Below, piece after piece: positions 3,201-45,972 of a stretch of 64,000 nucleotides of DNA. A model generated the notes under the pieces. That model worked only from the letters and a program-made list of their open reading frames with translations. It was not told the origin of the DNA and did not search any database. Within the stretch, counting starts at the first letter, position 1. Every line of letters starts with the position of its first letter. Made by a program: the position numbers and the translations under genes. The stretch is from Comamonas sp. lk (GTDB lineage: Bacteria > Pseudomonadota > Gammaproteobacteria > Burkholderiales > Burkholderiaceae_C): positions 124,001 to 188,000 of the forward strand of contig CAMELV010000004.1 of assembly GCA_945925985.1 (NCBI GenBank), written 5' to 3'.

Positions 3201-3236
3201 TCCAATGACTTTTCTAAAAAATTGGGTGCAGCTGTC

Positions 3237-8844: not shown

Positions 8845-8862
8845 ACTTTGGATTTACATCAC

Positions 8863-16450: not shown

Positions 16451-16455
16451 TCTGA

Positions 16456-17181
16456 ATGAATCCAACTGTCCCTCAAATTGGCTTTGACCGGTTCATCCAA
16501 CTGGACTGGGTGACTGCTGCGCTTAAGGTACGCGCAGACATGGCCAGTCTCGATGAGTTGAACGCGCTGCTGGATGCCGCTGGCCTTGGCAAGGAGGCCA
16601 AAGTCAAGACACGAACAAAGTTGAACGCACTTGCGCTTGAACCGAGGGCTGACTTGGTTGACTTTGTTGCGCGTGGAGTGCAACTTTTCAAGGGCACCGA
16701 CGATCCCGCAGAGCTGGCTGCATTTGCATGGGGTGCAGCGATCGCCACTTACCCATTTTTTGGGCAAGTTGCAGAGTTCATTGGACGTTTGAGTTCAATT
16801 CAAGGGGACTGCACGTCATCAGAGATCTACCGTCGAATGATCGAGGTGTACGGCGACCGTCAATCCATGAAAAGATCAGTTCAGTACGTGATCCAAACCC
16901 AAGCCAACTGGGGTGCTATTGAGCGCCTGCAGAAAGGCACGCGATTGGTCCGCTTGCCCACCAAATCAATCACCAAGGATAAAGTCATTGCCTGGCTCGT
17001 TGAGGCGGCATTGCGATATCAGGGTAGGGCTGTCTCGCTTGCTGCGCTGCAGTCTCTGCCAGTTATCTACCCGTTTGTACTGACACAACCTCTTGGCTAT
17101 TTGATGGCAAACAGCCCAATGCTTGAAGTCCGCTCTGAAGGACCAAGCAACCAATTGGTGGCGCTGCGCGCGTCGATTTGA
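16456..17181 (+). CDS. BrxA-like protein closing the BREX operon
   Basis: This is a 241-residue helical protein with no clear catalytic motif. Its segment around residues 55-155 (DPAELAAFAWGAAIATYPFFGQVAEFIGRL, shown in part, then a region with SVQYVIQTQANWGAIE) follows the BrxA/DUF1819 pattern: a helix rich in Ala and Leu leading to a Tyr-Pro-hydrophobic step, then a helix ending in a Trp-Gly turn. BrxA is the last gene of BREX type 3 operons, which is exactly this position, five bases after pglZ. BrxA is a small DNA-binding helical protein. Sequence similarity is weak by eye, so position carries much of the call. It ends convergently with the minus-strand gene at 17194. Confidence 0.55.
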   Translation: MNPTVPQIGFDRFIQLDWVTAALKVRADMASLDELNALLDAAGLGKEAKVKTRTKLNALALEPRADLVDFVARGVQLFKGTDDPAELAAFAWGAAIATYPFFGQVAEFIGRLSSIQGDCTSSEIYRRMIEVYGDRQSMKRSVQYVIQTQANWGAIERLQKGTRLVRLPTKSITKDKVIAWLVEAALRYQGRAVSLAALQSLPVIYPFVLTQPLGYLMANSPMLEVRSEGPSNQLVALRASI

Positions 17182-25626: not shown

Positions 25627-25636
25627 GCCGGGCCCC

Positions 25637-26236
25637 TTACTTCGCGCAAAGCTTGATGAAGGGGATGACGTAGTACACAGCGATGAAAACTACTGAACCC
25701 ACCATTGCCACTGAAAAGGTCAATGGAAGTTTGTCGCGAAGCAAGCTAAAGTGCTTCTGCTCATCAATCCATTCCGTTTGTTGTTGCCAGAAGAACTTGT
25801 AATGGGCATACCAATCACTGAGAAACATCTGTTTGCTCACGGCATGTTCAAAGGCACTGTCGTAGAGGGATTTGTGCCGTTCGACATGGGCCGTGAAGTC
25901 GGTGTCTTCGGGCAAAGACTTGACCTCGTAGTACAGCGCGCGCATGTCGTTGTAGACACGGGTTAGATGCACTCCCGCCTTGTCATAGGCCTCTTTCTTC
26001 GAATCGTAGTTCGTGATGTAGAGCGACATCACGCCAAAAATAATCATGACCGCGGACACCTCATTGGTCGCAAGCGGCGGAATGAATAAGGCGTAAACGC
26101 CAACGACTAGCGCGCAGAACCCCAGCCAACCAGGTGCTTTTTCGATCAGGTCCAGTGTCGCAAAGTGTTTTTTAGCCCCGTATCCGAGGTTGTACCCACT
26201 CTCTGCCAGTAGCTTCAAAAGATTGCTCTTGTTCAC
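25637..26236 (-). CDS. SLATT-domain membrane effector of CBASS
   Basis: This is a 199-residue membrane protein. Two helices close together (about 36-55, FCALVVGVYALFIPP, and 60-77, AVMIIFGVMSLYI) are followed by a helical cytoplasmic segment (SDWYAHYKFFWQQQTEWIDEQ) and a third hydrophobic helix at about 173-194. This is the SLATT layout (SMODS and SLOG-associated two-TM effector), closest to the group paired with CD-NTases. SLATT proteins are predicted to form pores when activated by the cyclic nucleotide, killing or arresting the infected cell. It is the first gene of the operon. Confidence 0.85.
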   Translation of the reverse strand: MNKSNLLKLLAESGYNLGYGAKKHFATLDLIEKAPGWLGFCALVVGVYALFIPPLATNEVSAVMIIFGVMSLYITNYDSKKEAYDKAGVHLTRVYNDMRALYYEVKSLPEDTDFTAHVERHKSLYDSAFEHAVSKQMFLSDWYAHYKFFWQQQTEWIDEQKHFSLLRDKLPLTFSVAMVGSVVFIAVYYVIPFIKLCAK

Positions 26237-29250: not shown

Positions 29251-29557
29251 TTGACAATCCCCGTATCGCCATGCGCAGTTCGGTGAGTGCCGCCGCCGTC
29301 TGTGATGCATATGCACCGCCGCTGCTGGTGTGTACAAATTTGAGCAGGCCACCGAGTCGCCGCAATTCACGCAGCATCGCCATGTCTGTTCGTGCAAAAA
29401 TGACTTTGTTTGCGGCCCTACTGCGAAATAGTTCTGAAAGCGTGATGCCGGCTATGTCAGCTTCTTCTGCCAGAAGCACTTTTTCAGTATGGGGCAGGCG
29501 CAGTTTGACGAAGTCGTTTTTGATCTCTTGGGCGTTCTGGGCGCGTGTCATGTTCAC
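29231..29557 (-). CDS. MobC/TraJ-like relaxosome accessory protein
   Basis: This 108-residue basic protein has the ribbon-helix-helix character of relaxosome accessory proteins: a KLRLPHTEKVLLAEEADIAG strand-helix, LSELFRSRAANK and a later LRRLGGLLKFVHT helix that is typical of MobC-like proteins. Such proteins bind the oriT inverted repeat and help melt the nic region for the relaxase. It overlaps the upstream gene by ATGA (29554-29557) and the relaxase start by 20 bp, so the three genes are coupled. Confidence 0.75.
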   Translation of the reverse strand: MNMTRAQNAQEIKNDFVKLRLPHTEKVLLAEEADIAGITLSELFRSRAANKVIFARTDMAMLRELRRLGGLLKFVHTSSGGAYASQTAAALTELRMAIRGLSNDNQEN

Positions 29558-29889
29558 CGCCCGTGTGATTGCATGGCAGCTTCTAATTGCAACCCTGAGC
29601 TCGAATCTTCGTTCGTTGGCTGGATGGGGTTCGATTTGCTTTTTTTATTACTGGGCTTGCGGGCGCGCTGTACGTATGACTTGAGGGTCGTAGTCGCAAT
29701 TGTCAGCCCGCCCGCTTTGAGTGCATCCGAGATTTGACTCAGCGTATATCCCCGCTTTTGCAAGGCAAGAATGTCCTTGGATAAAGCTTTCACAGTTTCT
29801 TGTGCGCTATGCTGGCGTACAGCATTGATGTCCGGCAGTTGTTGAAGATACAGTGACAGATCTCCAATTTCTTGTTTTGTCAATCCCAT
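29554..29889 (-). CDS. Small HTH-like protein, first gene of the mobilisation operon
   Basis: In this 111-residue protein a helix-turn-helix is plausible in residues about 48-76 (YTLSQISDALKAGGLTIATTTLKSYVQRAR), where a Gly turn separates two helices and a Leu-Lys-x-Tyr recognition helix follows. This resembles small TraK/MobC-type accessory proteins and operon regulators of mobilisation genes. The C-terminal third is Ser/Gln-rich and low in structure. The start has a GAGG site eight bases upstream. It lies 209 bp from the oriT nic motif, a position typical of a relaxosome or autoregulatory DNA-binding protein. Confidence 0.6.
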   Translation of the reverse strand: MGLTKQEIGDLSLYLQQLPDINAVRQHSAQETVKALSKDILALQKRGYTLSQISDALKAGGLTIATTTLKSYVQRARKPSNKKSKSNPIQPTNEDSSSGLQLEAAMQSHGR

Positions 29890-30285: not shown

Positions 30286-32952
30286 TCAACCAACAAGTTT
30301 GTCAGGCCACAGCAGAATGATTTCGTGAATATCAGGCACCGAAAATGGTAAATCAAGTCCTGGCAAATACTTGTTCACTGCCAGCTTGGCTTGCTTAAGA
30401 AGACTCACAGCCATCGACGTATCCTGTATTTTTCCAACGCAATCTGTGGTGCTGAGGTCATTCAATATATTCAATAGCTGCCAATCTTTAAGGAACTCAA
30501 ACGACTCTTCATGCGCTGCCATTCCAACCACAACCTCTTGAACGTGGGCACCACCGTCAGTGACACGGTCACTGATATGAAACACCACAATCGGCTTGCC
30601 CAACCCCTTTGCAATGGCAACTGAACCAACAAAGTTTTGTGCTTGTTGCAGCGCACGCGCAACTAGAGGGTGCCCAACGCCCACCAAGTCAGTGCCGTTG
30701 TCAAGTTTTGCTTTGCGGTCAAAAACCATTCCGCTGTATTCCCTTCTGATTGCCGGATGATTAAGCCAGCGATCAGGCGTTTTGAATGACAGAGCCTCTC
30801 CGTCTGTCTTGACGCGCCTGCCATTAAGCGACAGGGCACCCAAAAAAAATGGTTTCAATGCGGGTAAATCTATGGGTGGCACATCCTTGAGGCCAGACAG
30901 ATCAAAACTCTGAGCGTGCCCAACCAGTTTTTTCACTGTTTCTATTGCCGTTTCACCACCAAAAGTCCGACTTTGCTCGTCAAACCAAGCGGCAATTTTT
31001 TCCTTGGGTATGTCTTTGGCTTGATGAAAAAGTTGATCAAAAAAGCCAGGGCTTGCCATGCCCAATACCAGTTGAAGCAAATCTTCGGGTTCATCCATTG
31101 CAGCTCCCAGCGCTTGCATGATGCTGGCAAGTTTGGTTTCAAGTTTTCCCCAAATCATGCCTTCAACGGTGTCAGGATTGCGAATCGAGACAACTTCAAC
31201 AACCGCTTTTTGACCATACCTATTCAACCGCCCCACCCGTTGATGCAGCCGCATGGGGTTCCATGGCAGATCAATATGAATCAATGCACTGCAACGTTCT
31301 TGCAAGTCAATGCCCTCACCACCAGCTTCGGTAGAAATTAAGAACCGAATGCGCCCGGCATTAAAGGCATCGCAGACATCGTCCCTTGGCGCACTCTTGC
31401 TAACCACTTGCCCAGAGGGCAATCGAATGTTGTCCAGGCGGTTGTCACCATTGATAAAACCAACGCAATCTGCCCCGTAGCGCGCCATCAAAGCGGACAC
31501 AACCAAAGCTTGTGTTTTTTTGTACTCGGTAAAAAATAGCACCGATCGATCTTCAAATCGCTCATGAACGATTTCAATGATCCGGTCCACCCGTGTTTCA
31601 TGAACCACTGCGTTGGCTGCAGTCAAAAGCTCATCCAAATACTTGGATTCATCCTCCATGAGCCGGAGTTGCCCTTGCTGGTTTTCTTTAATCCACTCCA
31701 CAATGGCTCGGCTTTGCTCATCGTTTTCAGGGTCGTTCTGATCATTACCTAACTCAACCCTGAGTTTTTCTGCCGCATCGTTCGTTCGCCCGCGCCTGGC
31801 TTCAAGCGCACCACGAACTGCTGCGACAGAACTAGATGCCAACTTTTGCAGTGCAATCAACACCAGTATGACCTGGCCACGCTGCTTACTGGAAAGCCCG
31901 CTGGCGTAGGCTTTGCCGAGCTGGATAAAGCTGGTCATCAGCTCATAGAAAAGAGCTTCTTGCGGGCTGTACCTGAAAGTTTCAGGGTACTGCCTGATTG
32001 GCTGAAACAGTAGCTTACCCGCCATGTCCGTTGCTTTTTGCTTGGCGTTGCGGATAAGAAAGGCCGGTAAAGCCTCCAGCATTAAGTTCTCAGGTCGCTT
32101 GGGGCCAAACCGTTTATCAAGCAGCCCCATCAGCGACCAAAAGCCAAAGTCCTTACCGCGATGCGGTGTACCGGTGAACAACAGGCAAGACTCGATCTTG
32201 CCGGATTCCTCAAGTTTTTCCATCAACTGCAAGGCAAGCGTCTTCTTTCCGGTTTCGTCCGCATACAGATGGTGCGCCTCATCCACCAACACCATGTCCC
32301 AGCCCGGCGCATCCAACAATCTTTCGTGTCGACCATTACTGTCTGCGCGCATAGTGGGCAGCGATGCCACCACCATGTTGTGCGTGTTCCAAAAATCTGC
32401 TTTGGGCGTATCAACCTCGGGCCGGTACATTGACATTCGGATATCAAACATCTGCCGCAGCCGTTCCTGCCATTGCTCAACCAATTTGGCTGGTGTCAGT
32501 ATCAACAAGCGTCGAACAGCCCCCTTGGCCAACAGTGGCCACAAGATCAAACCCGCTTCAATGGTTTTTCCCATGCCAACATCATCAGCCACCAGTTTGC
32601 GAATTGGCCAGGCGCGTAAGACACGGTGGCAAACCCAGAGCTGATGCGGCAGCAAAGAAATGCGCGACCGTGAGAAGACACCCCACGCATCGTTGACGGA
32701 TTGGATTGCCAACGCTTGAGCACGCAAAATAACTTCGGATGTTGGCGCAATTGCGCCCGATAGGATGGCTGCGTCCAACGCAAGCACTGGCTTGAGTTCC
32801 TGCGTTCGGACTTCCTCAAGGCCGTGCGTGAAACGGACAACAGTTGTCAACCCGCGATCAAATAGGACTTCGCCTTGACCATGTTTGGCATGAATGACTG
32901 CGCCACCTGCGAGGAATGTCAAGCTCGATTCACTTCGACTAGCGTCATTCAT
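30286..32952 (-). CDS. SNF2-family helicase coupled to the giant GHKL protein
   Basis: This is a helicase of about 888 residues. Motif I DDVGMGKTIEAG is near residue 122, motif II LVDEAHHLY near 218, motif III FTGTPHRGKDFG near 255, motif V STEAGGEGIDLQ near 550 and motif VI RVGRLNRYGQ near 580. An N-terminal 40 residues (GAVIHAKHGQGEVLF, VVRFTHGLEEV) resemble the small beta-barrel that precedes some SNF2/RapA helicases. The ATG at 32952 is chosen because it overlaps the stop of the upstream 2529-residue gene by eight bases (ATGAATGA); the extension to 32988 is rejected. It is a different branch from the BREX helicase at 11652. Likely partner of the giant ATPase in one defence system. Confidence 0.85.
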   Translation of the reverse strand: MNDASRSESSLTFLAGGAVIHAKHGQGEVLFDRGLTTVVRFTHGLEEVRTQELKPVLALDAAILSGAIAPTSEVILRAQALAIQSVNDAWGVFSRSRISLLPHQLWVCHRVLRAWPIRKLVADDVGMGKTIEAGLILWPLLAKGAVRRLLILTPAKLVEQWQERLRQMFDIRMSMYRPEVDTPKADFWNTHNMVVASLPTMRADSNGRHERLLDAPGWDMVLVDEAHHLYADETGKKTLALQLMEKLEESGKIESCLLFTGTPHRGKDFGFWSLMGLLDKRFGPKRPENLMLEALPAFLIRNAKQKATDMAGKLLFQPIRQYPETFRYSPQEALFYELMTSFIQLGKAYASGLSSKQRGQVILVLIALQKLASSSVAAVRGALEARRGRTNDAAEKLRVELGNDQNDPENDEQSRAIVEWIKENQQGQLRLMEDESKYLDELLTAANAVVHETRVDRIIEIVHERFEDRSVLFFTEYKKTQALVVSALMARYGADCVGFINGDNRLDNIRLPSGQVVSKSAPRDDVCDAFNAGRIRFLISTEAGGEGIDLQERCSALIHIDLPWNPMRLHQRVGRLNRYGQKAVVEVVSIRNPDTVEGMIWGKLETKLASIMQALGAAMDEPEDLLQLVLGMASPGFFDQLFHQAKDIPKEKIAAWFDEQSRTFGGETAIETVKKLVGHAQSFDLSGLKDVPPIDLPALKPFFLGALSLNGRRVKTDGEALSFKTPDRWLNHPAIRREYSGMVFDRKAKLDNGTDLVGVGHPLVARALQQAQNFVGSVAIAKGLGKPIVVFHISDRVTDGGAHVQEVVVGMAAHEESFEFLKDWQLLNILNDLSTTDCVGKIQDTSMAVSLLKQAKLAVNKYLPGLDLPFSVPDIHEIILLWPDKLVG

Positions 32953-35900
32953 TTTCAAGATCTCCCTCATAAACAACTGTATTCCCAAGTATCAGTTCTT
33001 GAAGTGCTTGATCTCGTGCCAGGATCAGCAATGGAATGTCGTAGGCTCCAGTGAACGTAGCGTCATCTCCCAAACTTTCACGCAACACACCGTATATCTG
33101 GTCACTTGTGACATCCTCGCCTGCCAGATCGTCAAAGCCTATGCCAACCAGCATTCTCCTCACAGCATTTCCAGGTTTATATGCCCACGCTTTAACAGCT
33201 TCGCCTTCAAGTACACCGCTCCGAAGCAATTCACGGATGACAACATGTTTACCCAATTTCAAACTACCTTTCAGGGTTGGCGCATGAATACCGGAACCAC
33301 TCATTTCAGGGTCAGCACTAGGCGAATAAAAACCTTTCATTTGAGATTGATTTCGATAATCAAGATTTTGAAAAATGTGGACGTAGACATCAAACCACTT
33401 TGCAATTCGATATAGCCGCGGAAAATTGTCCATCCAAATACTGTATGTCTCATCCTCAATTTGTTGCTCACCATACTCATTAAGCACATTCAACCAAGCT
33501 TGGCCATCGTGGTTTGGATTTGCATGACAAAAGACGTCCCAAAAGCCTTTGGATTGCATTTTGTCAATGAACCCCCGATTCTGATAATCGCGAACTCTAC
33601 CTTGACGTTGCATCAGGCCAATTGCAAATAACGTCATCCATGACGCGCGATCTTCATTAACACTTTCAAAGTGACGCGGTACGTTGGCAGGCCAGAATTC
33701 GCGATCAAATTTCTTTAGCTGCTCGACGCTATTTTCTTGCCACCAATCACGAATAGCTTCAAGGGCATCAGTACCTGTCTTCAACTCAGATTCGGGTTCT
33801 TCTTCCCCATGCTCTTCCCAAAGCGGTTTCGAGCTAAACATACCAAACAACTGATTTTTATCCTGAACAGACCAACCAACCAGATACGGTGACGATGGCT
33901 CTAATCCCTCGATCCATGAACCGTGAATTTTGAAGCTTATCCAGGAACGCACATCTGGGTTGCCCAACAAAAATCGTAATGCAGCGACCCTGCCAGACTG
34001 TGGAACCGGTGGCGATGCCAAAATCCATTCGGCAATCACATTTCCCTGGGGCCGTTCAAAGCCAGCATATCGTTGAATCAAAGCAAGTCCTTGCCCTTGA
34101 TAGGACGAATGCAAAATGCAACATGGCGGAGCAAACGGCAAACACTGTTTGTCAAACTCGGCACCTGTTTTCATCAATTGACGCCCTAGATGCCAGCTGC
34201 CGTCTTTGGCCTGAAACAAAAGTCCGCTAATTTTCTGCTTGATGTACTCGCTCTCTTCAAGTGAAGGCTCAATCAATAGCAGGCAAAGTGTGTCCATCAG
34301 TTCTGCGCTACAGCCTTTACTGGGCAACAAATCCAGCAGTAAATTGACGGACATCTCAGGCAACTCAAAGTCATCACTACGGGTTGAGCTGGCCTTTAAC
34401 TGTGCGGCCACACTCAGCGATACCCAACCTGAAACCGGAAAGCGGTCGATGAATTCAGGCCATTTTGTCAAGGCTTCACAGAATTTTTCCCATCTTGAAT
34501 TCAATGCCAAGCAAACCTTTTCAGGGCTGACAAAAGCGCACAGCGGCGCTGACAGACCGTTTGGAATCTCGCCTGCAATGGTCATAAATCGTTCAAGCAA
34601 ACTATGGCCAAACTGACCCAACAGTCGAATGGACTCCCCTTCATCGTTTTTGAGTGCTGGAAACTGCTCCCAAAACGTTGCCCAAAATTCAGATGCCGTC
34701 ACGTCCTTGGCTAGCTTGAATTGAGATCTTGTCCGCTCCCAATTGTCACGTGACCGACGTGTTGCTTGCAACACCAAATCAGCTGCAGTTGACCCCAGCC
34801 GGTCTGCCATAGCCAGATTAGAGCGGGCATTTTCACCATGGGGTAGCCCGCCGCGTCCAGTATCCAACTCAAACTGGCCGTTGAGTATGAATCCACTGGC
34901 CGCAGGCTCACGTGTCGGTGCGGTTACCCAAACACCTGGGGGGAAATGGTCAACATCATCTTGAAAACGAACAAAGCCTCGCGAACCCACCCTCAGAGCA
35001 AAACAACCACTTGCCATTCTGAAGTTAAGCAGTCGAGAGGTACTAAATCCATTTTTTGCAGGTAACTGAATCGCACCAATTTCGATCTGTTGCAAATCAT
35101 CAGTCAACGGTGTAGGCAACCACTGATGATTAGTTCCATTAACTTCTATTGATCGAATCTCCTTGCTGAACACGGCTTGGAGACCCGCGAGTGCCGAAAA
35201 TCGATCCGTGACTTGCGCTTGTTTATCTGCACGATTAATTTTGAACTCGACGACAGTGCCACGCAATCCTGGCGCATCAGGCAAACGATGTCGCTGCAAT
35301 AAATCATCAGAGTCAGTGGTTTCAATCCATTGCGTAGGCAGACACCCTCCAACAATTTTTGCCTTTAAGTCACCACTCCAAATGCATGGCGCGTCGGTGG
35401 CAAGTAGAACGCTCTTGAAACCAAGTCCAAACTTTCCGGTGAGGCCAGTTGTTTCGTCTTTGTCAGATGCAGCAAGTACCAACATACGTTGCAAATCTTC
35501 GCCATAAGATTCATTACGAGCGCTTCCATGCCCCATGTAGTTGATCGGTCGCCCCCAGTGCCCAAACCGAACTGTGTCACCGGTCGTCTCCATGACGAAG
35601 CGGCCAACATGGCTGGAGGGGTGAGCAACGGTCGAATCGCTTTGCATCAATGACTGAAGTTCAGTCACCGCATCGTCTGCGTTTTGCAAAATTTCAAACG
35701 CTATGCTAGATACTTCGTAGCGATTTTGCTCCACGCGTTGACGAATACCGTTCAGCACGGACTCTTGAACCTGTGGGTCCGAAGTCATTAGCCTTGACAA
35801 CTCTGCCTTGGCTTCTTCAATCGCTCGCTTAACCTGATCTGTCGCTTGCTTTGCTTCCTCTTTTTCGGCAAGACTACTTTCCAACTTCGCGAAAGAACTC

Positions 35901-38900
35901 TGCCACTTGGATAGCGCTGGGTTTTTCTTAACTGATCTGAGATTTCGCAGGTCGTAGGGAAGACGGTCGAGAATGAGTCTTCGAGCAACGGCCAGTTCAA
36001 GCTGATTGCTCTTCTCCAGCGTTTCCCATAATGGCCCGAGATTGGGTTCCCGCTGGTTATAAGCCTCACGCAAGATACATTCACAAGTCTTGCGTAGCAT
36101 GCTGGACAAATCTGCTTTGTCATACTGCCCAGGGCGATTCACCTCACGTAGTCGTATTTGAAAGACTGATTTTTCGCCTCTTGTCCCAGCCCAAGTGAGA
36201 TTGCCCATGACCAGTCCATCAACTTGAGTGTCCACTGGGACGCAAATTTCGTCACCAAGCAGTGATCGCACGTAAATCTCTTTCGCATTCGAAATTGTCG
36301 GTAAAAAATGAAGCATCTCCAGTGCATCAAGCTTGGTGTGCTCTCGGCGCTTGATATCCCACACTGGACTATTGCGACTCCCTGGCTCAACCCAACTCAG
36401 TTGATCAGCGAAATATTCAAAAGAATGTGGTTTTAGCCACTCAACGGCCAAATTTCTGTATGCAGGCCCCAACAAGGCAAAAAATGCACCCACTGGGCCA
36501 GAAGGCATCGACTCACGCCAGAGCTTGAAATAGTTCACCAAGGTGAATTGTGATTGCTCTTTGGCAAGTGAAGATGCAACGTCCTCACCAGTCATACCAG
36601 AACTATCAGAACTGCTGCCTGATTCTTTTTTTGCAATGCGGCTTGCAAGATAACCTTCAAGAATTTTCGCTTGCTCACCATGAAGAACACTGCCTTTAGC
36701 AACACCTTGCACACCGACACAAAGAACGTCGGCAGACTTCCATTGACCATCGAGTGCGAGAAGCTGAATTTGGTGCAGAGCATCTGGTAAGTCTTCGCTG
36801 TACTGAGCGAGTTGTTGCAGGTACAAATTAAAGGCGACATGCCGTTTGGAGAGGCCTTGCGCCGAAATTTCATTCAGTACGTCAATTAATTTCTCTACAG
36901 AAAGTGGCTTCTGAATTTCCTTGAGCAGGTACTCCGTCACATCAGTAAGGTTGTCAGATCCAACCGCTTGAACCGCTGCTTTAACTATCGACCAAGCGGG
37001 CAGTGCACTTAGTTCAGCCAGCTGTTCAATTAATGTCTCAGAAATTTCTGATAATGGAATTTCGCCAATCAAATGCCCACCCGCCTCAACCATAAGTTGA
37101 CCAAGTCGCTCAAGACCAGACTTATCGTTCGCGAAGAATGGCTTGAGCACTGAAAAATTGGCATGATCACGCACTTCTTTTGAAATTGCCAATGTTCCCG
37201 CAAAGCAATAGCCACACTCAGAGGCAAGCCGGTCAATATCCGCACCTAGCGGGGCAAAGTCAATGATGTCCTCTGGGCTGAGAGCCCCACCTTTTGCCAG
37301 CGGCAACCATGAGGTGCATCTAAATGCCGAGATTTTTTCCAACGAAGGCAAAGGAACTTTGCCTGCAGATGCCAGAACCAACTGCCAATAAAGCTCCGGC
37401 GTGGTCTGGCCAAGCGCGCGCTCAATGGTTGTCTCATAGCTCCAGGTCGGTACCCATTGTTCTTGTTTCTCACGCAACTTATGGTTTTTTCCAAGTTGGA
37501 TTAAGCGGACACCATTGAGAAACTGAGGGTTGGCCAATCCAGCAGCATCAACATAACAATGATCATCAATTGGACCAAAACCACCTGATGTATCTTGATG
37601 AATCGGCAACGCCTTCCAGAGTCTTTCATCTGCAATGCGAATCAACATCTCAGAGATCTCAGCATCCGTGAATTTGCGTGCTTCGACCTTATCGATGCCG
37701 TTACCACCCATCATGTGTTCAATGACCTCATCCGCACCAACTTTTCGAATACCGAGTCTTTCCCAATCGTCAGACTTTATTGCACCGGCCAAGTTGGAAT
37801 CGACCACGCTCCATGAGTCTGGTTCGACCATGCATTTGAGTTTGATCCAGACTTCGTCTGCCCGACCAGCATTTATCCATAGAGTGGAACCAATATCGTC
37901 GTGATGCAAGATTGAACCGTGAAGTACATACCTCATCCCGCGGATGACGTCATCACCCTTGATGGCTGATGGACTGATGGTTCTGATGAAGTCGCTACGG
38001 ACGGTCATGTCCGCCAGTGCCATTGATCGTCCAGACTTGCCCAACGTCACAAACGCGGCAGTCATGTCATCTGCCGATGGAACTGGCAATGGACGTTGTT
38101 CACCACGTTGTACCCAGCTGGCAATGTCTGCGTTAACAACCCATATTGGCTCGTCGGGCAAGAGTTTGGCCAGTGCTGAAGTGACAGGGTAGGCCGCAAC
38201 ACCATTACCAAATCCTTGCTTAAACAAGAGGCCATGTTGGTGAGCTATCTGCAGTTCGTCAAAAGAAACAGCCATGTTTCTCGCTGTGCGTGCACAGGTC
38301 GCAGTTAAAACTCTGAAAGATCGATTCACGCGAATTGCTTGACCACGCTCATCTTTTTTATCACTCAGCAGTGACAGCACGGATTGAGCAGCGCGTAGCA
38401 AATTTTCAACCTGTTTTGTGGTTTGATGACCATCCGGTGCCGTACTGAGTGAGATCTCTTGATCAATCATCTTCAAAAGATTTCGAACCTCGCTGTCCGT
38501 AGGTTCGCCTTTGGATGCACCTTTTTCGTCAGGATCTAAATCCATGGGTACCAGTAGCTTTTCAGTCTCGACACCCATCAAGAGTTTAAGGGTGACGTCA
38601 TCCAGTCCTGTTAGCGCGTCTGGCTTTCTTGTGCCCACAGCAAATCGAAACTCAGGCCGCACCAAAGAGACCAGTTCCTGAAATATGGAACGCAGGCTGC
38701 GGAACGTTTGCAGTGACTCTTTACGCAAAACATTTCTAAGCACTGCAATCAATTTGTTTTGTACGTCGCTGCCACCGGCAAATCGGCGTTCTTCTGGGCT
38801 CATAAAGCTAACCAGGTAACTCATACCCGTCGAAGAGCAGACTTCATCGTAATCAACCTCATCAAGGACGCGAAGCAGTGTTTGGGCGTCCCAATTCGCG

Positions 38901-40534
38901 TGCGTTAGCATTAAAGATGGCGCTTTTTCGTCTAGCAGCAGGCAACCCTCCACCGTCAGCTCTTTCAACTTCGGAAATAACTTCCAAGGCCGTTGCGGAT
39001 CATCTCTTGGTGGTCTTGGCAACAATAGAAATCGAGAATCTTTAGTGACTTTTATGTGAGCCCACTTCGGTCCATCCGGGGTGACCATTCGCACCCACGC
39101 CTGTTCATGGCATAGAAAATTCCGAAAACTTTCCCAGAATCCTTTGCCAATACCTGTGGTGCTGCTTTTTGAGCGAGCCATAAGTATGGCCCTCGCCAGT
39201 TCATCCTTTTCGTTTTCGTTGATGTCTTTGGCGAACTCGGCGAGAGCAGGCAACAACTGGGGCAAGATGACCTGCTGCGCTACCGATTGGTTCCAACCGG
39301 TGTGCAAATCTGCATCGTCAAGGTCGGCAGATGGCGCAAGCGATGGTTCAGCCAGATGTCCAAAGCCAGCAATTCCCCGCCGACCAGCGTCCACGAAAAA
39401 CTGCCCATGCAAAACAACTCTGTATTGTTGCTGACTCTTTTCAAGTCGAAACTCATAGCTAAGCCCCTCTTCCATTGGCAAAAACACAGCCCAGTCAATG
39501 ACCAACTTGGCTTCTTCGCCGTCCGCCGCCGCACCTGAAACCATTACCGCGCCTTCAGCCTCCGATTTATCTGGAACTGGCTCACGTATGCCGTCACTAT
39601 TCAATCGTCCTGTTTTGGGCCAGACATCCAGCGTCTGGAATTGACTGAAAGGTAAGGCTCCAGGTCGTGCCCGTTGCTGAACCCGAAATCGAAGTCTTCC
39701 CTTACTGGCTCCGCCATCACTCACACTACCAGTGGACACAAGTTCAGCGCTTCTATGATCGACCCGTAGCGTCCCTTCGTCGAATGAAATCTGCACTTTG
39801 AATCCAGATATCTCTCGGGAGCTCGCCAGTTCAATCGATTCAAGACTCTGCAATAGCGGCACGACTGATCGAATTTTTCGGCTGAGCTTTTGGTCATACA
39901 AAAAATGCATCTCGTTGGCACCACCGTCACCAGGGTATTTATCGACAATGCCGCCATAGGGCTTACCCTCCTTTTGCGGAACGTGGTCCCGTCGGCGAAG
40001 GGGTATCCACATCAGGAACCAACTTTCGCAACCTTTGTCCAGCTGCTCATTTGCCACCACAGCTCGCAACAGGTCAAAATCTTGCGAGCCAACTTGATCC
40101 CAAAGGCCGTGGAATAAGTCACCACCGTCTGGATCCCGCCACGGGTTCAACAAAACATCAAAGTTCTGTTGACCGTCATAGGCCACATAAAAGAACGCTT
40201 CACAAAGGTGAAATACGCTCTTCATCCCCAAGCCAAACTTACCGATTGAGCCTGATTCACCCGCTTTGCTATTCAGTCCAAACGAGCGAATGGCGCGCTC
40301 ATCTTCTTTCTTGAACTGCCCGTCGTTGAATGCCCATAACCCCTGGCCTTGTAACAGTGGGTGTGATGACTGGCCCTTAAAGCCAGGATGCATGCCAAAC
40401 GTGAGCCGACGCGCTTTAGCATCGTCCGCGTTTTGAATCAACTCCTTGAGAATCGGGAAACCCGATTTGTAACGATCTCTCAGGTTGTCTGCAATTAAAT
40501 TCACATGGTCAGACTGAAAACCGTAACTCTTCAT
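32945..40534 (-). CDS. Giant 2529-residue protein with two sacsin-like GHKL ATPase modules
   Basis: Two Bergerat-type ATPase modules are visible. The first has KELIQNADDAKA at about 30-41 and IGKFGLGMKSVF near 97-108, with NDGQF as the Asp-x-Gly motif. The second has EILQNADDAV near 1615 and TGKFGLGFKSVL near 1703, with GHWGRPIN in the place of Asp-x-Gly. Both resemble the HSP90-like N-terminal domain of sacsin. The remaining 1900 residues are mixed alpha/beta with no motif I can name and no membrane segment. A good ribosome site (AGGGAAG on the minus strand, 40543-40549) supports the ATG. It is coupled to the SNF2 helicase and lies 110 bp downstream of a WYL regulator gene in the same direction. 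A defence role is inferred. Confidence 0.8.
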   Translation of the reverse strand: MKSYGFQSDHVNLIADNLRDRYKSGFPILKELIQNADDAKARRLTFGMHPGFKGQSSHPLLQGQGLWAFNDGQFKKEDERAIRSFGLNSKAGESGSIGKFGLGMKSVFHLCEAFFYVAYDGQQNFDVLLNPWRDPDGGDLFHGLWDQVGSQDFDLLRAVVANEQLDKGCESWFLMWIPLRRRDHVPQKEGKPYGGIVDKYPGDGGANEMHFLYDQKLSRKIRSVVPLLQSLESIELASSREISGFKVQISFDEGTLRVDHRSAELVSTGSVSDGGASKGRLRFRVQQRARPGALPFSQFQTLDVWPKTGRLNSDGIREPVPDKSEAEGAVMVSGAAADGEEAKLVIDWAVFLPMEEGLSYEFRLEKSQQQYRVVLHGQFFVDAGRRGIAGFGHLAEPSLAPSADLDDADLHTGWNQSVAQQVILPQLLPALAEFAKDINENEKDELARAILMARSKSSTTGIGKGFWESFRNFLCHEQAWVRMVTPDGPKWAHIKVTKDSRFLLLPRPPRDDPQRPWKLFPKLKELTVEGCLLLDEKAPSLMLTHANWDAQTLLRVLDEVDYDEVCSSTGMSYLVSFMSPEERRFAGGSDVQNKLIAVLRNVLRKESLQTFRSLRSIFQELVSLVRPEFRFAVGTRKPDALTGLDDVTLKLLMGVETEKLLVPMDLDPDEKGASKGEPTDSEVRNLLKMIDQEISLSTAPDGHQTTKQVENLLRAAQSVLSLLSDKKDERGQAIRVNRSFRVLTATCARTARNMAVSFDELQIAHQHGLLFKQGFGNGVAAYPVTSALAKLLPDEPIWVVNADIASWVQRGEQRPLPVPSADDMTAAFVTLGKSGRSMALADMTVRSDFIRTISPSAIKGDDVIRGMRYVLHGSILHHDDIGSTLWINAGRADEVWIKLKCMVEPDSWSVVDSNLAGAIKSDDWERLGIRKVGADEVIEHMMGGNGIDKVEARKFTDAEISEMLIRIADERLWKALPIHQDTSGGFGPIDDHCYVDAAGLANPQFLNGVRLIQLGKNHKLREKQEQWVPTWSYETTIERALGQTTPELYWQLVLASAGKVPLPSLEKISAFRCTSWLPLAKGGALSPEDIIDFAPLGADIDRLASECGYCFAGTLAISKEVRDHANFSVLKPFFANDKSGLERLGQLMVEAGGHLIGEIPLSEISETLIEQLAELSALPAWSIVKAAVQAVGSDNLTDVTEYLLKEIQKPLSVEKLIDVLNEISAQGLSKRHVAFNLYLQQLAQYSEDLPDALHQIQLLALDGQWKSADVLCVGVQGVAKGSVLHGEQAKILEGYLASRIAKKESGSSSDSSGMTGEDVASSLAKEQSQFTLVNYFKLWRESMPSGPVGAFFALLGPAYRNLAVEWLKPHSFEYFADQLSWVEPGSRNSPVWDIKRREHTKLDALEMLHFLPTISNAKEIYVRSLLGDEICVPVDTQVDGLVMGNLTWAGTRGEKSVFQIRLREVNRPGQYDKADLSSMLRKTCECILREAYNQREPNLGPLWETLEKSNQLELAVARRLILDRLPYDLRNLRSVKKNPALSKWQSSFAKLESSLAEKEEAKQATDQVKRAIEEAKAELSRLMTSDPQVQESVLNGIRQRVEQNRYEVSSIAFEILQNADDAVTELQSLMQSDSTVAHPSSHVGRFVMETTGDTVRFGHWGRPINYMGHGSARNESYGEDLQRMLVLAASDKDETTGLTGKFGLGFKSVLLATDAPCIWSGDLKAKIVGGCLPTQWIETTDSDDLLQRHRLPDAPGLRGTVVEFKINRADKQAQVTDRFSALAGLQAVFSKEIRSIEVNGTNHQWLPTPLTDDLQQIEIGAIQLPAKNGFSTSRLLNFRMASGCFALRVGSRGFVRFQDDVDHFPPGVWVTAPTREPAASGFILNGQFELDTGRGGLPHGENARSNLAMADRLGSTAADLVLQATRRSRDNWERTRSQFKLAKDVTASEFWATFWEQFPALKNDEGESIRLLGQFGHSLLERFMTIAGEIPNGLSAPLCAFVSPEKVCLALNSRWEKFCEALTKWPEFIDRFPVSGWVSLSVAAQLKASSTRSDDFELPEMSVNLLLDLLPSKGCSAELMDTLCLLLIEPSLEESEYIKQKISGLLFQAKDGSWHLGRQLMKTGAEFDKQCLPFAPPCCILHSSYQGQGLALIQRYAGFERPQGNVIAEWILASPPVPQSGRVAALRFLLGNPDVRSWISFKIHGSWIEGLEPSSPYLVGWSVQDKNQLFGMFSSKPLWEEHGEEEPESELKTGTDALEAIRDWWQENSVEQLKKFDREFWPANVPRHFESVNEDRASWMTLFAIGLMQRQGRVRDYQNRGFIDKMQSKGFWDVFCHANPNHDGQAWLNVLNEYGEQQIEDETYSIWMDNFPRLYRIAKWFDVYVHIFQNLDYRNQSQMKGFYSPSADPEMSGSGIHAPTLKGSLKLGKHVVIRELLRSGVLEGEAVKAWAYKPGNAVRRMLVGIGFDDLAGEDVTSDQIYGVLRESLGDDATFTGAYDIPLLILARDQALQELILGNTVVYEGDLENE

Positions 40535-40644: not shown

Positions 40645-41607
40645 CTACAAATACCCTGCCACCGCCGCCAGCAACCCCTTCTGCACCCGGGTCCGCAGCG
40701 CCGCTGGCCCCAACACCTGCACATCGGCCCCAAAGCGCATGATGTCGCCCACCAGTTCGCGGTCGTCAGCATACGGAAACGAAAGTACGTAGCTGCCATC
40801 TTCTTCAAACGCGCTCTCCTGCTGCGCATGCCAGCATTCACCAGCCACCCAGCGCGCCCGCTCTGGCGTAAAGCGAAGCTTGGCCCAGCCTTTTGGTGAA
40901 CCGCTGAAGATGCCGTAACCCGTGCCCAGAGCCTGGTCAATCGCCTTCGCCGTTATATCCTTTGCTTCTTCGTCCAGCACTTCCAGTCGACTAATGGCAT
41001 CAATGCTGAAGCTGCGCACGTCATCACGCAGGTGGCACCAGGCATCCAAATACCAGTTATCGCGGTAATGCACCAGCCGCTGTGGCGACACCTCGCGTTC
41101 AGTGGTGATGCCGTTTTGCCGGTTCATGTGCCAAATTTTGAGGCGTTGGCCTGCCATGGTGGCCGCTGCGATCAGCTCAAACGATTTGGTGGCACCTTGG
41201 CGTTTTCCAGCATGCACGATGCGAATGCGCTTGGCTATGTCCTGGCTGGTCAGACCATGCTGCTTCATCAATTGCGCCAGGCGCGCTTGCAAGGGTTTGA
41301 GTTTGACGCCCAGCAAGCCAGGCTCCAATTGCTCCAATAGTTGCTGAATCGTCACCAGCGCCAGCAGTTCTTGCTGGCTAAACCACAGGCCGGGCAGTTC
41401 ACACGCAGATGGGTCTTGCACCAGCTGATAACCACCAAGTTCGCGGTTGAATTCAATGGGCACATGAAGTTGGTCACGCAGCTTGGCGATGTCGCGTCTG
41501 AGGGTTGCGCGAGAGACTTCCAGCGTGGTCATCAGGCTGTGTGCAGACACAGCCCGGCTGGCGCTCAGCAAGCTCTTGTACCGGTACAGACGCACAACTT
41601 CGCTCAT
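40645..41607 (-). CDS. WYL-domain transcriptional regulator (first copy)
   Basis: This is a 320-residue regulator. The N-terminal winged HTH has the DeoR-like pattern (LMTTLEVSRATLRRDIAKLRDQL). The WYL domain covers about 140-220 and includes EREVSPQRLVHYRDNWYLDAWCH, with the name-giving Trp-Tyr-Leu. A WCX-type C-terminus (GWAKLRFTPERARWV) follows. BrxR and CapW, which control BREX and CBASS loci, have this design; WYL domains sense nucleic-acid or nucleotide signals and release repression. It lies upstream of the giant GHKL gene on the same strand and is divergent from the gene at 41814. It is paralogous to the regulator at 46954, with matching segments throughout. Its DNA is more G+C-rich than the giant gene. 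Confidence 0.9.
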   Translation of the reverse strand: MSEVVRLYRYKSLLSASRAVSAHSLMTTLEVSRATLRRDIAKLRDQLHVPIEFNRELGGYQLVQDPSACELPGLWFSQQELLALVTIQQLLEQLEPGLLGVKLKPLQARLAQLMKQHGLTSQDIAKRIRIVHAGKRQGATKSFELIAAATMAGQRLKIWHMNRQNGITTEREVSPQRLVHYRDNWYLDAWCHLRDDVRSFSIDAISRLEVLDEEAKDITAKAIDQALGTGYGIFSGSPKGWAKLRFTPERARWVAGECWHAQQESAFEEDGSYVLSFPYADDRELVGDIMRFGADVQVLGPAALRTRVQKGLLAAVAGYL

Positions 41608-42552: not shown

Positions 42553-45500
42553 GTGCAGAAACGTGACAACAGGATTCTTTGCTCCGCATCAGACTTGGTC
42601 AACTACCTGGAGTGCGAGCATCTCACGACCTTGGATCTGATTGATCTTGAAACCCCACTCCCACGAACCAAGGATGACGACCAGGCCAAACTGATTCAAG
42701 CCAAGGGGTACGCCCACGAAGCCGAATTCCTGGAAACGCTGAAAGCTCGACACGTATCCGTCATCGACATTGCTGCACTTGGTGGCAACCTTGAGCAGAA
42801 GGTTGACAACACGCTCAAAGCCATGCGCGAAGGATATGAAATCATCTTCCAGGCGACCTTGACCGACAAGAATCTGATCGGTCATGCGGATTTTTTGCGC
42901 AAGGTTCCCCGCCCATCGGCTCTTGGTGATTGGAGTTACGAAGTTCTGGATACCAAACTGGCCAGGAGCGCAAAGGCCAAGTTCATTATTCAGCTTGGCT
43001 TCTATTCAGCATTGGTTGCGAAAGCACAGGGGCTTGAACCCATTCAAATGCACGTTGTCCTGGGCGACAAAACCGAAGTTGCATATCGCTGTGCTGAATA
43101 TTCGCGCTATCTGAGTCACGTAAACCGTCAGTTTCTCGATCGCGTCACCGGAAGTGCTCTTGAGACTTACCCAGTCCCTTGCGAAAAGTGTGATCTTTGC
43201 AAGTGGAGCGGGCTGTGTGAAGAACGACGGCTCAAGGATGATCACCTGTGCCAGGTAGCCAACATCAGTCGCCTTCAGATCAAAAAATTGGAATCGAACG
43301 GCGTCAGCACCATGGAAGCGCTTGCCACTTTGCCGCCAGAAGTGCGTATCCCGAAAATGACGGTCGAGACCCTGGATAAGCTGCATCGACAAGCCAGATT
43401 GCAACTCCTGGCACGGCAAACAGGGGAAAATCATCTGGAGCTATTGGCTCTGGACGAAGGCGCTGTTCGTGGATTTGCACGTTTGCCTCAATCAGACATT
43501 GGCGACCTGTTCTTTGATATGGAAGGCAATCCCCTGGAAGAGGGCGGGCTTGAGTACCTTTTCGGCCTGTATTTCTTTCAAGATGGAAAGCCTGAGTTCA
43601 AGGCCTTCTGGGGTCATAACCGCTCCGATGAAAAGAAGGCTTTTGAAGCCTTCATGGATTTTGTGACCGGATGGCTTCGCAAGTACCCTGCTGCGCACAT
43701 TTACCACTACGCGCATTACGAACAGACCGCCCTGAAAAAGTTGATGTCACTGCACGGCACCCGTGAGGCAGAAGTGGACAATTTGCTGCGCACGCAAAAA
43801 CTGGTGGATCTTTACAAGGTGGTTCGTGAAGGGATCCGTGTTTCGGAACCCAGGTACTCCATCAAGAACATTGAGCACTTTTATCTTGAGCGCCGATCGG
43901 GCGATGTCACCAATGCCGGTGCCAGCATTGTTTATTACGAAAAATGGAAAGAAACCGGCGACCCCCAACTTCTGAAAGACATCGAGGCTTACAACTTTGA
44001 TGATGTCCGATCCACGTATGAATTGCGCCAGTGGTTGTTGACACTTCGTCCACCCGAACTGCCTTGGGCAAATGTCGTCAATGCAGGGGATGAATCTGCA
44101 ACGCGAGAGGTGGGTGAGCTCACCTTGGAGGAAAAGCGGCTGATTCCCTACCGAGAACGTCTGGTTGACACATTGCCAGACGACCGCACGGTCTGGACTT
44201 TGGCCGATCACTTGCGGGAACTGACCTTCCAGCTGCTCGATTTTCATCGCCGGGCTGCTAAACCCGAGTGGTGGGAAATGTTCTCGCGCATGGAAATGGA
44301 TGTGGATGAACTCCTGGACGATGGCGCTTGCCTGGCAGGTCTGTGGCCGGATCCGGCCAATCCGCCAAAAGATGAGAAACAATCCATTGTTCACACCTAT
44401 CTGTTTCCGGAGCAGGAGTCCAAGCTCAAGACTGGGGACAGTGCCTCAATCACACAGACGGGTGAGCCAGTGCGTGAGCTCAAGATTGATGCCGACCATC
44501 GCCGTGTCAGCTTCAAGCGGACTGCCAAAAAGGGACCGATACAAGAAACCGTCTGCCTTGGCCCTGGAATGCCGGTGTCTACTAAGGCATTGACGGAAGC
44601 AGTTTTCCGGTTCGCCAACAGCATGGTGGTGGGCAATGGCACTTATCCAGCAATTGAAGCTGTGCTGTCGCAGTCGTTGCCCAAAATTCATGGCGTCACT
44701 GCCGGCAACCCAATAGTGCCAGCAGACAACACTTCGCTTCCGAAAATCATTGACGCGATTTCAAACCTTGACAGCAGTTATCTGTTTGTTCAGGGGCCAC
44801 CAGGCGCCGGCAAGACCTATACGGGTTCACACGTCATCGTGGCGTTGCTCAAGCAGGGATGCCGTGTGGGTGTCTCATCGAACAGCCACAAAGCGATTAA
44901 CAATTTGCTTGAAGGCGTGGTGAAGGTCGCCAAAGAGCAAAGCTTCGTCTTCAAGGGGGCCAAGAAATCCACAAGTGGCAAACTAGACTCGTACTTTGAT
45001 GGCGATTACATCGAAGACGTCTTCGACAACGGAGATATCACTGATGCATTTGGCGATGACGGCGAGTATCGACTTATTGCGGGAACCGCTTGGTTGTTCT
45101 CGGATGGTGAAATGGATCAGCAACTGGACTACATCTTTGTCGATGAGGCCGGTCAAGTGGCTTTGGCGAACTTGGTTGCGATGGGCACCAGTGCCAAGAA
45201 CATTGTGCTTCTGGGTGACCAGATGCAGTTGGGACAGCCCATCCAGGGAATTCATCCCGGTCGTTCCGGGGAATCGTCTCTGGAGTTTTTGCTAAGTGGC
45301 TTGGCCACCATTCCGGCAGAGCGAGGTATCTTTCTTGGAACAACCTGGCGAATGCACCCGGATGTGTGCCGGTTTATCTCGGATGCAGTCTATGACGGTC
45401 GACTCGAACCAGAACCCAACAATGCCAAACAGACGTTGTTGCTCACAAAAGATGCCCATCCAGCGTTGAGGCCAACTGGGCTGCGGTATGTCCCGATCGA

Positions 45501-45972
45501 ACATGACGCTTGCTCTCAGCGCAGCCAGGAGGAGGCCGAGCTTGTCCTTCAGTTGGTGAGTAGCCTATTGAAGCAGCGGTTTCGGGACAAACATGGGCCG
45601 GAGCACCCAATGACCCTGAATGACATCCTTGTGGTGGCGCCTTACAACATGCAGGTGAATTTACTTAAACAGGTGCTGCCGGATGGAGCGCGGGTTGGCA
45701 CCGTTGATAAGTTTCAGGGGCAGGAGGCGGAGGCTGTCATCGTCTCCATGGCAACCTCCAGCGGCGAATACCTGCCTCGCTTCATTGAATTTCTGTATAG
45801 CAAGAATCGACTGAATGTTGCTATCTCACGCGCAAAGTGCCTTGCGATCTTCATTGCTAATCCTGCATTGATGGCAATTCGGTGTTCTACGCCGGAAGAG
45901 ATGGCGCTGGTAAATACATTGTGTTGGGTTCAGGAAGTTGGTATCAATGGCCAAAACACATCGCCTAAATAA
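42553..45972 (+). CDS. RecB-like nuclease / RNase H-like / SF1 helicase fusion (TM0106 type)
   Basis: This 1139-residue protein has three parts. Residues 1-240 form a RecB-type PD-(D/E)XK nuclease (GHADFL, then YEVLDTKLA with a Cys set PCEKCDLCKWSGLCEERR near 209 that looks like an iron-sulphur or zinc site). Residues about 315-500 form a predicted RNase H-like exonuclease (IGDLFFDMEGNPLEEGG with Asp and Glu, HYAHYE, YNFDDVRST). From about 740 onward is an SF1 helicase of the Upf1/Dna2 kind: GPPGAGKT near 746, FVDEAGQ near 865, GDQMQLGQP, TVDKFQGQEAE and NVAISRAK. TM0106-family proteins of this build are common in defence islands. It lies behind operator 1. Confidence 0.9.
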   Translation: MQKRDNRILCSASDLVNYLECEHLTTLDLIDLETPLPRTKDDDQAKLIQAKGYAHEAEFLETLKARHVSVIDIAALGGNLEQKVDNTLKAMREGYEIIFQATLTDKNLIGHADFLRKVPRPSALGDWSYEVLDTKLARSAKAKFIIQLGFYSALVAKAQGLEPIQMHVVLGDKTEVAYRCAEYSRYLSHVNRQFLDRVTGSALETYPVPCEKCDLCKWSGLCEERRLKDDHLCQVANISRLQIKKLESNGVSTMEALATLPPEVRIPKMTVETLDKLHRQARLQLLARQTGENHLELLALDEGAVRGFARLPQSDIGDLFFDMEGNPLEEGGLEYLFGLYFFQDGKPEFKAFWGHNRSDEKKAFEAFMDFVTGWLRKYPAAHIYHYAHYEQTALKKLMSLHGTREAEVDNLLRTQKLVDLYKVVREGIRVSEPRYSIKNIEHFYLERRSGDVTNAGASIVYYEKWKETGDPQLLKDIEAYNFDDVRSTYELRQWLLTLRPPELPWANVVNAGDESATREVGELTLEEKRLIPYRERLVDTLPDDRTVWTLADHLRELTFQLLDFHRRAAKPEWWEMFSRMEMDVDELLDDGACLAGLWPDPANPPKDEKQSIVHTYLFPEQESKLKTGDSASITQTGEPVRELKIDADHRRVSFKRTAKKGPIQETVCLGPGMPVSTKALTEAVFRFANSMVVGNGTYPAIEAVLSQSLPKIHGVTAGNPIVPADNTSLPKIIDAISNLDSSYLFVQGPPGAGKTYTGSHVIVALLKQGCRVGVSSNSHKAINNLLEGVVKVAKEQSFVFKGAKKSTSGKLDSYFDGDYIEDVFDNGDITDAFGDDGEYRLIAGTAWLFSDGEMDQQLDYIFVDEAGQVALANLVAMGTSAKNIVLLGDQMQLGQPIQGIHPGRSGESSLEFLLSGLATIPAERGIFLGTTWRMHPDVCRFISDAVYDGRLEPEPNNAKQTLLLTKDAHPALRPTGLRYVPIEHDACSQRSQEEAELVLQLVSSLLKQRFRDKHGPEHPMTLNDILVVAPYNMQVNLLKQVLPDGARVGTVDKFQGQEAEAVIVSMATSSGEYLPRFIEFLYSKNRLNVAISRAKCLAIFIANPALMAIRCSTPEEMALVNTLCWVQEVGINGQNTSPK

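Follow-up and report, generated by a model that had tools for sequence, protein, structure and literature searches.

Among described systems, the operons of the MORC and paraMORC ATPases come close to the genes considered here: an ATPase of the GHKL-S5 type lies beside a superfamily II (SFII) helicase, which in one group is of the SWI2/SNF2 type, the operons are mobile and patchily distributed, and DNA looping has been proposed for them (Iyer et al., 2008, PMC2292703). RapA-like SNF2 motors of similar size are found in DrmD of DISARM, BrxHII of BREX, the HmaA/BR helicases and ArmA of ARMADA, systems in which the motor is partnered by DrmAB, BrxC-PglZ, DUF499-methyltransferase or the YprA helicase (PMC12839542; PMC12458937). 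A GHKL ATPase is the energy-using part of an anti-phage protein that has been tested, the GHKL-Shedu protein VcSduA (PMC12137116), and eukaryotic sacsin carries tandem Hsp90-like modules (PMC9880540); a paper on HEPN domains (PMC3710099) and one on death domains (PMC8195603) belong to the further nearest literature. Here we describe two adjoining genes from a 64,000-nucleotide stretch of DNA of Comamonas sp. lk (contig CAMELV010000004.1, positions 124,001 to 188,000; hereafter the window), part of a 4.29-Mb draft genome in 72 contigs. They encode a giant protein with two sacsin-type GHKL modules and a RapA-like SNF2 helicase. We regard it as nearly certain that the two form a functional unit and, on balance, favor the reading that they make up the invariant core of a two-gene system against invaders, most likely phages, that has so far gone undescribed.

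Both genes lie on the minus strand. The giant (P0001, 40534..32945) is intact, a single uninterrupted frame of 2529 residues, and its end overlaps the start of the helicase gene (P0002, 32952..30286; ATG at 32952, stop at 30286) by 8 bp, ATGAATGA, at 32945..32952. The helicase, a RapA/BrxHII-like motor, has 888 residues, or 900 from an alternative TTG start at 32988. A preliminary description of this DNA had given these coordinates, the two GHKL modules with their motif positions and the 8-bp start-stop overlap correctly, as the intact frame, the domain matches and the motifs detailed below attest.

Conservation of the Pair

GTDB genomes were surveyed for orthologues by a pattern-based search that started from six helicases, and the best 80 loci among the matches listed were considered. 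Forty-five of these carry helicases at 42-76% identity, here treated as orthologues, and the other 35 stand at 26-34%. In 43 of the 45 orthologue loci the helicase is preceded on its own strand by a complete or partial giant homologue, while the remaining two (L020 and L036 in our numbering) offer less than 220 nucleotides of upstream DNA. The two frames, read from their first possible start codons, overlap or are at most 27 nucleotides apart in 40 of the 43 pairs. Wider gaps occur in L022 (819 nucleotides) and L023 (677 nucleotides); in L024 (223-8578) the giant is cut to its N-terminal ~166 profile positions and followed by 7.8 kb with type IIG restriction/methylase-like genes before the helicase is reached, an arrangement that suggests either a broken pair or an assembly join. 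The giant of L048 is assigned over about 90 profile positions, at 70 bits. Several loci have the giant spread across two to four frames (e.g., L013, L016, L035, L060, and L061), and in the cyanobacterial L013, L035, and L060 it is divided into separate genes near profile position 825, which suggests that parts of the giant can work as subunits. Over 30 pairs, the pairwise distances of giants and helicases correlate at 0.925, and none of 5000 permutations gave a value as high.

The preliminary description held that its proposal would be refuted if homologues of the two proteins usually occurred apart, and this is not so. The pair is kept across many phyla, the loci of the survey being assigned to Pseudomonadota lineages, Acidobacteriaceae, Desulfobacteraceae, Planctomycetota, Chloroflexota, Gemmatimonadetes, cyanobacteria, Verrucomicrobiales, Treponema and others. 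Among 27 whole genomes selected as carriers of the pair, none showed a further giant that lacked an adjoining helicase (a contig-end fragment, G453:C197, was left out), and the second giant copy of Thiocystis minor also has a helicase of its own (L115). Two plasmids provide the exceptions. The giant on a Synechocystis B12 plasmid is cut short beside transposases (L018), and the Haematobacter plasmid pOT1-5 (L118, 1174-15300) carries a different operon, composed of a TM0106 nuclease, a 1405-residue protein and a 2103-residue sacsin-like protein, with no SNF2 gene in view and a WYL gene at the edge.

Among the 35 distant helicases, three, all from Verrucomicrobia (L081, L089, and L091), are preceded by a distant giant homologue (E 3e-19 to 1.7e-27), that of L091 having been found with search filters off; no giant homologue was found for the other 32, some of which have little upstream DNA. 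This verrucomicrobial form (L081:4060-9858, L089:1-1329, L091:4276-9996), a sign that the pairing is deeply conserved, keeps the same gene order with a helicase at ~29% identity, and the giant of L091 is smaller, at 1906 residues.

ATPase Modules and Predicted Fold of the Giant Protein

Scans of the giant with Pfam and NCBIfam (E 0.001 each) returned sacsin-type modules and no further domain. The Pfam SACS model scores 111 bits against a cut-off of 32.8, and the NCBIfam model for a sacsin N-terminal ATP-binding-like domain 116 bits against 50, each over two stretches, which places the modules in the sacsin type. With boundaries that are estimates, the protein can be divided into a first GHKL/Hsp90-middle module (residues ~1-430), a mostly helical, solenoid-like region (~430-1590), a second GHKL/Hsp90-middle module (~1590-1960) and a conserved C-terminal helical region (~2100-2529). 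The ATP-site motifs of module 1 (residues 31-112; 40199..40444, minus strand) comprise ELIQNADDA at 31-39 with Glu31, Asn35, and Asp38 of the N-box, the G1 motif Asn70-Asp71-Gly72 (NDG, 70-72), the lid residue Lys90 and IGKFGLG at 97-103 with Gly98, Gly101, and Gly103. Module 2 (residues 1614-1711; 35402..35695, minus strand) has EILQNADDA at 1614-1622 with Glu1614, Asn1618, and Asp1621, then His1659-Trp1660-Gly1661-Arg1662 (HWG at 1659-1661), lid Lys1692 and TGKFGLG at 1699-1705 with Gly1700, Gly1703, and Gly1705.

We counted conservation of these sites in full-length homologues, 31 in all. In module 1 the N-box is intact in all 30 rows that have residues there, the remaining row being a gap; position 70 holds Asn in 29 rows, Asp in one and a gap in one, Asp71 is kept in 25 of 31 and replaced by Asn in five, and the three glycines are present in 30 rows, the last row having a gap. 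In module 2 the N-box residues and the glycines are each present in 31 of 31, and the G1 motif retains His in 29, Trp in 26, and Gly and Arg in all 31. The lid lysine is found in 30 of 31 (Lys90) and 31 of 31 (Lys1692), and the middle-domain arginines (385 and 1894) in 31 of 31 each. With the N-box and G2 glycines kept in 30 or 31 of the 31 homologues, the motifs of the two modules are not due to chance.

The giant's N-box, G1 motif, lid lysine and middle-domain arginine correspond to the sacsin residues Glu116, Asn120, Asn160, Lys180, and Arg474 named by Perna et al. (PMC9880540), and by motif alignment Asn70 and His1659 appear to be the counterparts of the adenine-contacting Asn160 of sacsin and Asp79 of Hsp90. 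The giant thus resembles eukaryotic sacsin in its tandem Hsp90-like modules, an adenine contact of the Asn160 type, the lid lysine and the middle-domain arginine, but it has two modules where sacsin has three, its partner is a DNA motor, and it shows none of the ubiquitin-like, DnaJ or HEPN domains of animal sacsin (Pfam, E 0.001). Its two ATP sites differ consistently, one being of the Asn type and the other His-Trp-Gly-Arg, and both look catalytic. The preliminary description had taken the G1 difference to mean that the modules may differ in ATP binding; the difference, at the position that aligns by motif with the adenine contact, is real and conserved, but it does not imply a dead second module, since module 2 keeps the catalytic glutamate and the middle-domain arginine.

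A structural model of residues 1560-2529 (predicted local distance difference test, pLDDT, 86.5; predicted template modeling score, pTM, 0.60) matches the N-terminal and middle domains of Hsp90/TRAP1 (Foldseek, best E 2.0e-8), so that module 2 is predicted to have the Hsp90 fold; module 1 matches the solved sacsin SR1 structure 5v47 at 1.3e-10. The model of residues 400-1590 (pLDDT 84.4, pTM 0.45) is mostly helical and looks like a solenoid, its Foldseek likeness to exportin-type solenoids being weak (best E 1.6e-3, none under 0.001). The C-terminal region (2100-2529) shows good conservation, and Arg2434, Glu2435, and Asp2499 in it are invariant. Family scans with Pfam and NCBIfam detected no nuclease or methylase domain in either the giant or the helicase. 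When compared with a viral fold library, the 1560-2529 model gave matches at the GHKL level (Hsp90-like proteins, phage RIIA weakly, and topoisomerases).

The Helicase and Comparison with Known Systems

The helicase is conserved in 30 of 30 sequences at each of its Walker A motif (Gly128, Lys129, Thr130), DEAH box (224-227) and motif VI (Gln571, Arg572, Arg575). Among solved structures, a search at 1e-20 found five relatives, all of them RapA sequences (4.2e-46 to 8.5e-45), and an SNF2 core, Walker A, DEAH and arginine motifs together with RapA as nearest solved relative identify it as a RapA-like SNF2 protein; such proteins are motors on double-stranded DNA. The closest relative among the matches listed, at 76% identity, comes from a genome of the same genus (G014). 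We rejected its identification as BrxHII of the BREX system encoded in the same window, because that system has its own BrxH (11652-14459, plus strand; 1409 bits over full length) and P0002 matches the BrxH model, its second-best in PADLOC, only over residues 96-663 at 255 bits.

For the giant, PADLOC offers TmtA, which we take to stand for Tiamat. TmtA resembles the giant as a large protein with an N-terminal GHKL module, and TmtA models match the giant's GHKL parts; their best stretches, however, cover only ~85-110 residues of models 1300-1780 residues long, and TmtA presumably acts as a single-gene system, unlike the pair. Membership in Tiamat was therefore rejected: eight TmtA models match, none over its full length, and the best stretch of the best model spans only 28-112. 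BR/Hma systems are defined by a DUF499 ATPase and an N6-methylase as partners in the account of BREX-related systems by Rakesh and Krishnan (2026, PMC12839542), and membership was rejected here since the partner is a GHKL giant whose only Pfam match is SACS. More generally, the helicase differs from DrmD, BrxHII, HmaA and ArmA in forming a separate orthologue group, with at most 34% identity for the other loci among the best 80, and in having the giant as its partner; the words GHKL, sacsin and Hsp90 do not occur in the main texts of PMC12839542 and PMC12458937. The pair shares with MORC and paraMORC a GHKL plus S5/middle domain with catalytic motifs and an SFII helicase as neighbor; a MORC-specific motif in the S5 domain is also named in PMC2292703. 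Those operons, however, come mostly with methylases and nucleases, whereas the constant unit here is two genes only, and the GHKL protein is ~2500 residues long, its two sacsin-type modules being joined by an extended helical region. VcSduA is a fusion of a nuclease with the GHKL part (PMC12137116), whereas here the partner is a motor and family scans detect no nuclease. Neither PADLOC 2023 nor NCBIfam of June 2026 yielded a matching system, nor did full-text searches of open-licence PMC papers, a body of text outside which subscription journals and most preprints lie.

Distribution and Genomic Company

Among 369 genomes sampled from the class and 398 from the phylum, the full giant occurs only in its own genome, and two further matches in the phylum sample cover the GHKL part only; this absence is not a strict one, as at most two candidates were scored per listed genome. 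The giant was not found in 50,697 phage records, and the pair is present in one IMG/VR contig (L099). Plasmids of Trichormus, Sphingomonas and two Deinococcus strains carry the pair, in cyanobacterial, alphaproteobacterial and deinococcal hosts. That a rare and scattered pair should reside on plasmids and islands fits horizontal transfer.

The company of the pair points toward defense. The window holds a run of BREX genes at 48-17181 (plus strand; BrxC, PglX-I, BrxH, PglZ and BrxA models) and, at 24334-26236 on the minus strand, a CBASS-like pair composed of a SMODS/AGS_C CD-NTase and an adjoining SLATT_6 protein with two transmembrane segments. Elsewhere, we compared the longest neighbor (up to 1400 residues) at the first 20 of 26 eligible loci with PADLOC at 1e-20, and 10 of the 20 match a model; the control, made up of the longest frame from each of ten 12.5-kb pieces of the Comamonas genome, gave one in 10, a weak IetA match. 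Ten hand-picked neighbor proteins (eight with PADLOC matches) were kept out of these counts. Pooled scans of 94 and 86 neighbors returned DrmMI, SspC, GajB, BrxL, restriction and methylase families, and restriction-modification genes adjoin several pairs but differ between loci. From this company of BREX, DISARM, restriction and CD-NTase/SLATT genes we judge a defense role for the pair to be likely.

The pair itself lacks a constant third gene, as the genes upstream of 23 loci form only eight small common groups of two to four proteins. A RecB-like nuclease-helicase of the TM0106 family (42553..45972, plus strand) stands ~2 kb from the giant's start and was considered for this place. The family exceeds its cut-off in seven of 29 genomes and is near the pair in three cases, the window and two others: L055, where it overlaps the giant frame, and L037, where it lies ~4.5 kb upstream; in plasmid L016 (L016:29893-33228) it is ~9 kb away. 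On these counts it was rejected as a constant component, and it may instead be an accessory nuclease lent to the pair. In the Henriciella locus (L055:1-2559) it is the start of the giant that the TM0106 frame overlaps. The WYL-domain regulator that the preliminary description placed upstream is indeed present (40645..41607, minus strand, ending 110 nucleotides before the giant's start), but it is not a conserved part: within the available locus DNA, L021 is the sole further orthologue locus where a homologue directly precedes the giant (phmmer, 1e-5). We rejected it as a component, and it is probably a regulator of the island that stands outside the core system.

Proposed Mechanism and Rival Explanations

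GHKL-middle-domain modules of the Hsp90, MutL and topoisomerase kind close on ATP and act as clamps or gates. Clamp or gate action of GHKL modules has also been argued by Iyer et al. (PMC2292703). Where such a protein is in a fixed pairing with a RapA-like motor and no nuclease is found, the most fitting interpretation is a clamp that the motor loads and that directly obstructs processes on invader DNA. The giant would be a double clamp of the Hsp90/sacsin type, its two ATPase modules joined by the long helical region, closing when ATP binds and re-opening upon hydrolysis, and the helicase would translocate as a RapA-type motor along double-stranded DNA that is incoming or replicating in the course of invasion. 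Giant and helicase probably work as one complex, in which the clamp may be loaded onto, or closed around, DNA or a nucleoprotein such as a replication or transcription complex. Phage replication or transcription could then be blocked or stripped directly, since no nuclease or methylase is detectable in giant or helicase, and a nuclease, where needed, might be lent by variable neighbors such as the TM0106 enzyme. We infer DNA as the clamp's substrate, a block without cleavage and the defense role itself, together with the sensor-or-clamp function suggested in the preliminary description. As a whole, the proposal of an undescribed immune system, thinly spread over many phyla, in which a RapA-like SNF2 motor loads a double sacsin/Hsp90 clamp with two unequal ATP sites onto the DNA or nucleoprotein of an invader, which the clamp would halt without cleavage, is a tentative one; the idea of a bacterial sacsin-type machine as a DNA-bound immune clamp is part of the same reading and shares its standing. 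The block by clamp and motor without cleavage, taken as a claim of its own, is doubtful enough to be offered as a conjecture.

Several observations weigh against this reading. Agreement of the 1560-2529 model with Hsp90-type structures over whole chains is loose and holds at the domain level only (TM scores by query 0.20-0.29 and root-mean-square deviations of 9-19 A over the 50 matches listed). The lack of a nuclease is a matter of family scans, and an unrecognized active site, perhaps involving the invariant Arg2434, Glu2435 and Asp2499, is possible; a TM0106 nuclease gene does lie ~2 kb from the giant in the window. Location in a defense island is an association only, half of the 20 sampled neighbors match no PADLOC model at 1e-20, and the control is small, with 10 windows from one genome whose longest proteins are on average shorter. 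No PADLOC family occurs in more than two of the 94 or two of the 86 pooled neighbors, and hence no particular defense partner recurs. Finally, the trees of giant and helicase share 13 of 27 splits and show 11 conflicts between well-supported splits, which may reflect partner exchange or poor resolution; set beside the distance correlation, this indicates largely joint inheritance with room for either.

Other explanations can account for part of the same evidence. The pair could be a restriction accessory like MORC or paraMORC, a DNA-looping and motor part that works only with neighboring methylase and nuclease genes. An SFII helicase gene occurs in ~70% of MORC neighborhoods, mostly in restriction-modification contexts (Iyer et al., 2008, PMC2292703), and several of our pairs adjoin restriction enzymes or methylases. 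This explanation is nonetheless unlikely: no methylase or nuclease gene is constant, as the eight small groups upstream of 23 loci attest, the methylase of the window (PglX, 8848-11652, plus strand) belongs to BREX, the nearest nuclease-type gene is the inconstant TM0106, and such variable company fits island membership equally well. A MobP relaxase and a phage-type integrase in the window, along with several plasmid-borne homologues, raise the prospect that the pair acts mainly on plasmids or other mobile elements, in the manner of Wadjet, or that it serves competing mobile elements, with phages not the target. Pairs in chromosomal contigs beside phage-defense genes are common in the sample, however, and many defense systems travel on mobile elements, so that we hold this account, too, to be improbable. 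More remote is a role in stress or proteostasis unrelated to invaders, in which a sacsin/Hsp90-like chaperone would cooperate with a RapA-like recycler of stalled RNA polymerase; the modules do have Hsp90 and sacsin as relatives and the helicase has RapA as its closest solved one, but the patchy distribution (its own genome only, in either sample), the plasmid copies and the defense company do not fit a housekeeping role.

It is very improbable that the helicase is the DrmD of a DISARM system with the giant as accessory, although this is what its database label would imply. Its best PADLOC model, PDLC02634 "DrmD," fits over full length at 910 bits, DISARM genes occur near a few pairs, and the DrmB-type DUF1998/MZB domain (PF09369), which is not specific to DISARM, is found above cut-off somewhere in 13 of 28 genomes. 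The NCBIfam DrmD equivalogs, however, score below their cut-offs (NF038317, 261.6 bits against 610; NF038318, 137.7 against 950), the DUF1998/MZB domain has no match in the Comamonas genome, only four of the 28 (G431, G435, G442, and G452) have it on the contig of the pair at a distance of up to ~20 kb, and in L027 the genes that come after the pair belong to DISARM and include its own canonical DrmD (1046 residues; PDLC02621, 1554 bits). DISARM membership was rejected on these grounds. Trichormus plasmid C has drmA, drmC and a DUF1998 gene in the vicinity of the pair, and we infer that the PADLOC label arose from loci of this kind; judged by how the model fits the helicase of the giant pair, PDLC02634 is probably mislabeled. 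The preliminary description's proviso that the system might already be described under another name finds such a name in the PADLOC label, but DISARM membership fails, and no other described system containing the pair came up in the libraries and papers that were consulted.

If the favored reading of an anti-invader clamp and motor is true, the pair would represent a widely but thinly spread defense system with an unusual effector logic, in which a very large Hsp90-type clamp and a DNA motor operate with no recognized nuclease or modification. It would also offer bacterial homologues for the genetic study of sacsin-type tandem ATPase modules, and would correct the label of PDLC02634, a model fitting a helicase whose orthologues accompany the giant and for the most part stand apart from DISARM.

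Remaining Features of the Locus

A scan for promoters and terminators gave a result below shuffle expectation. The interior of the BREX run contains, on the plus strand, genes for SIR2 (3222-4604), HerA (4601-6730), an unassigned protein (6731-8092) and SfsA (8089-8844), which precede PglX. Close to the pair, a TraI/MobP relaxase with TraI_middle, LPD7 and RepB_primase_C domains is encoded at 26578-29397 (minus strand), and between it and the pair lies a small gene with no assigned function (29554-29889). At the other end of the pair, the TM0106 gene is divergent from the WYL gene, and the window also carries HNH, WYL, DUF2130 and phage-type integrase genes.

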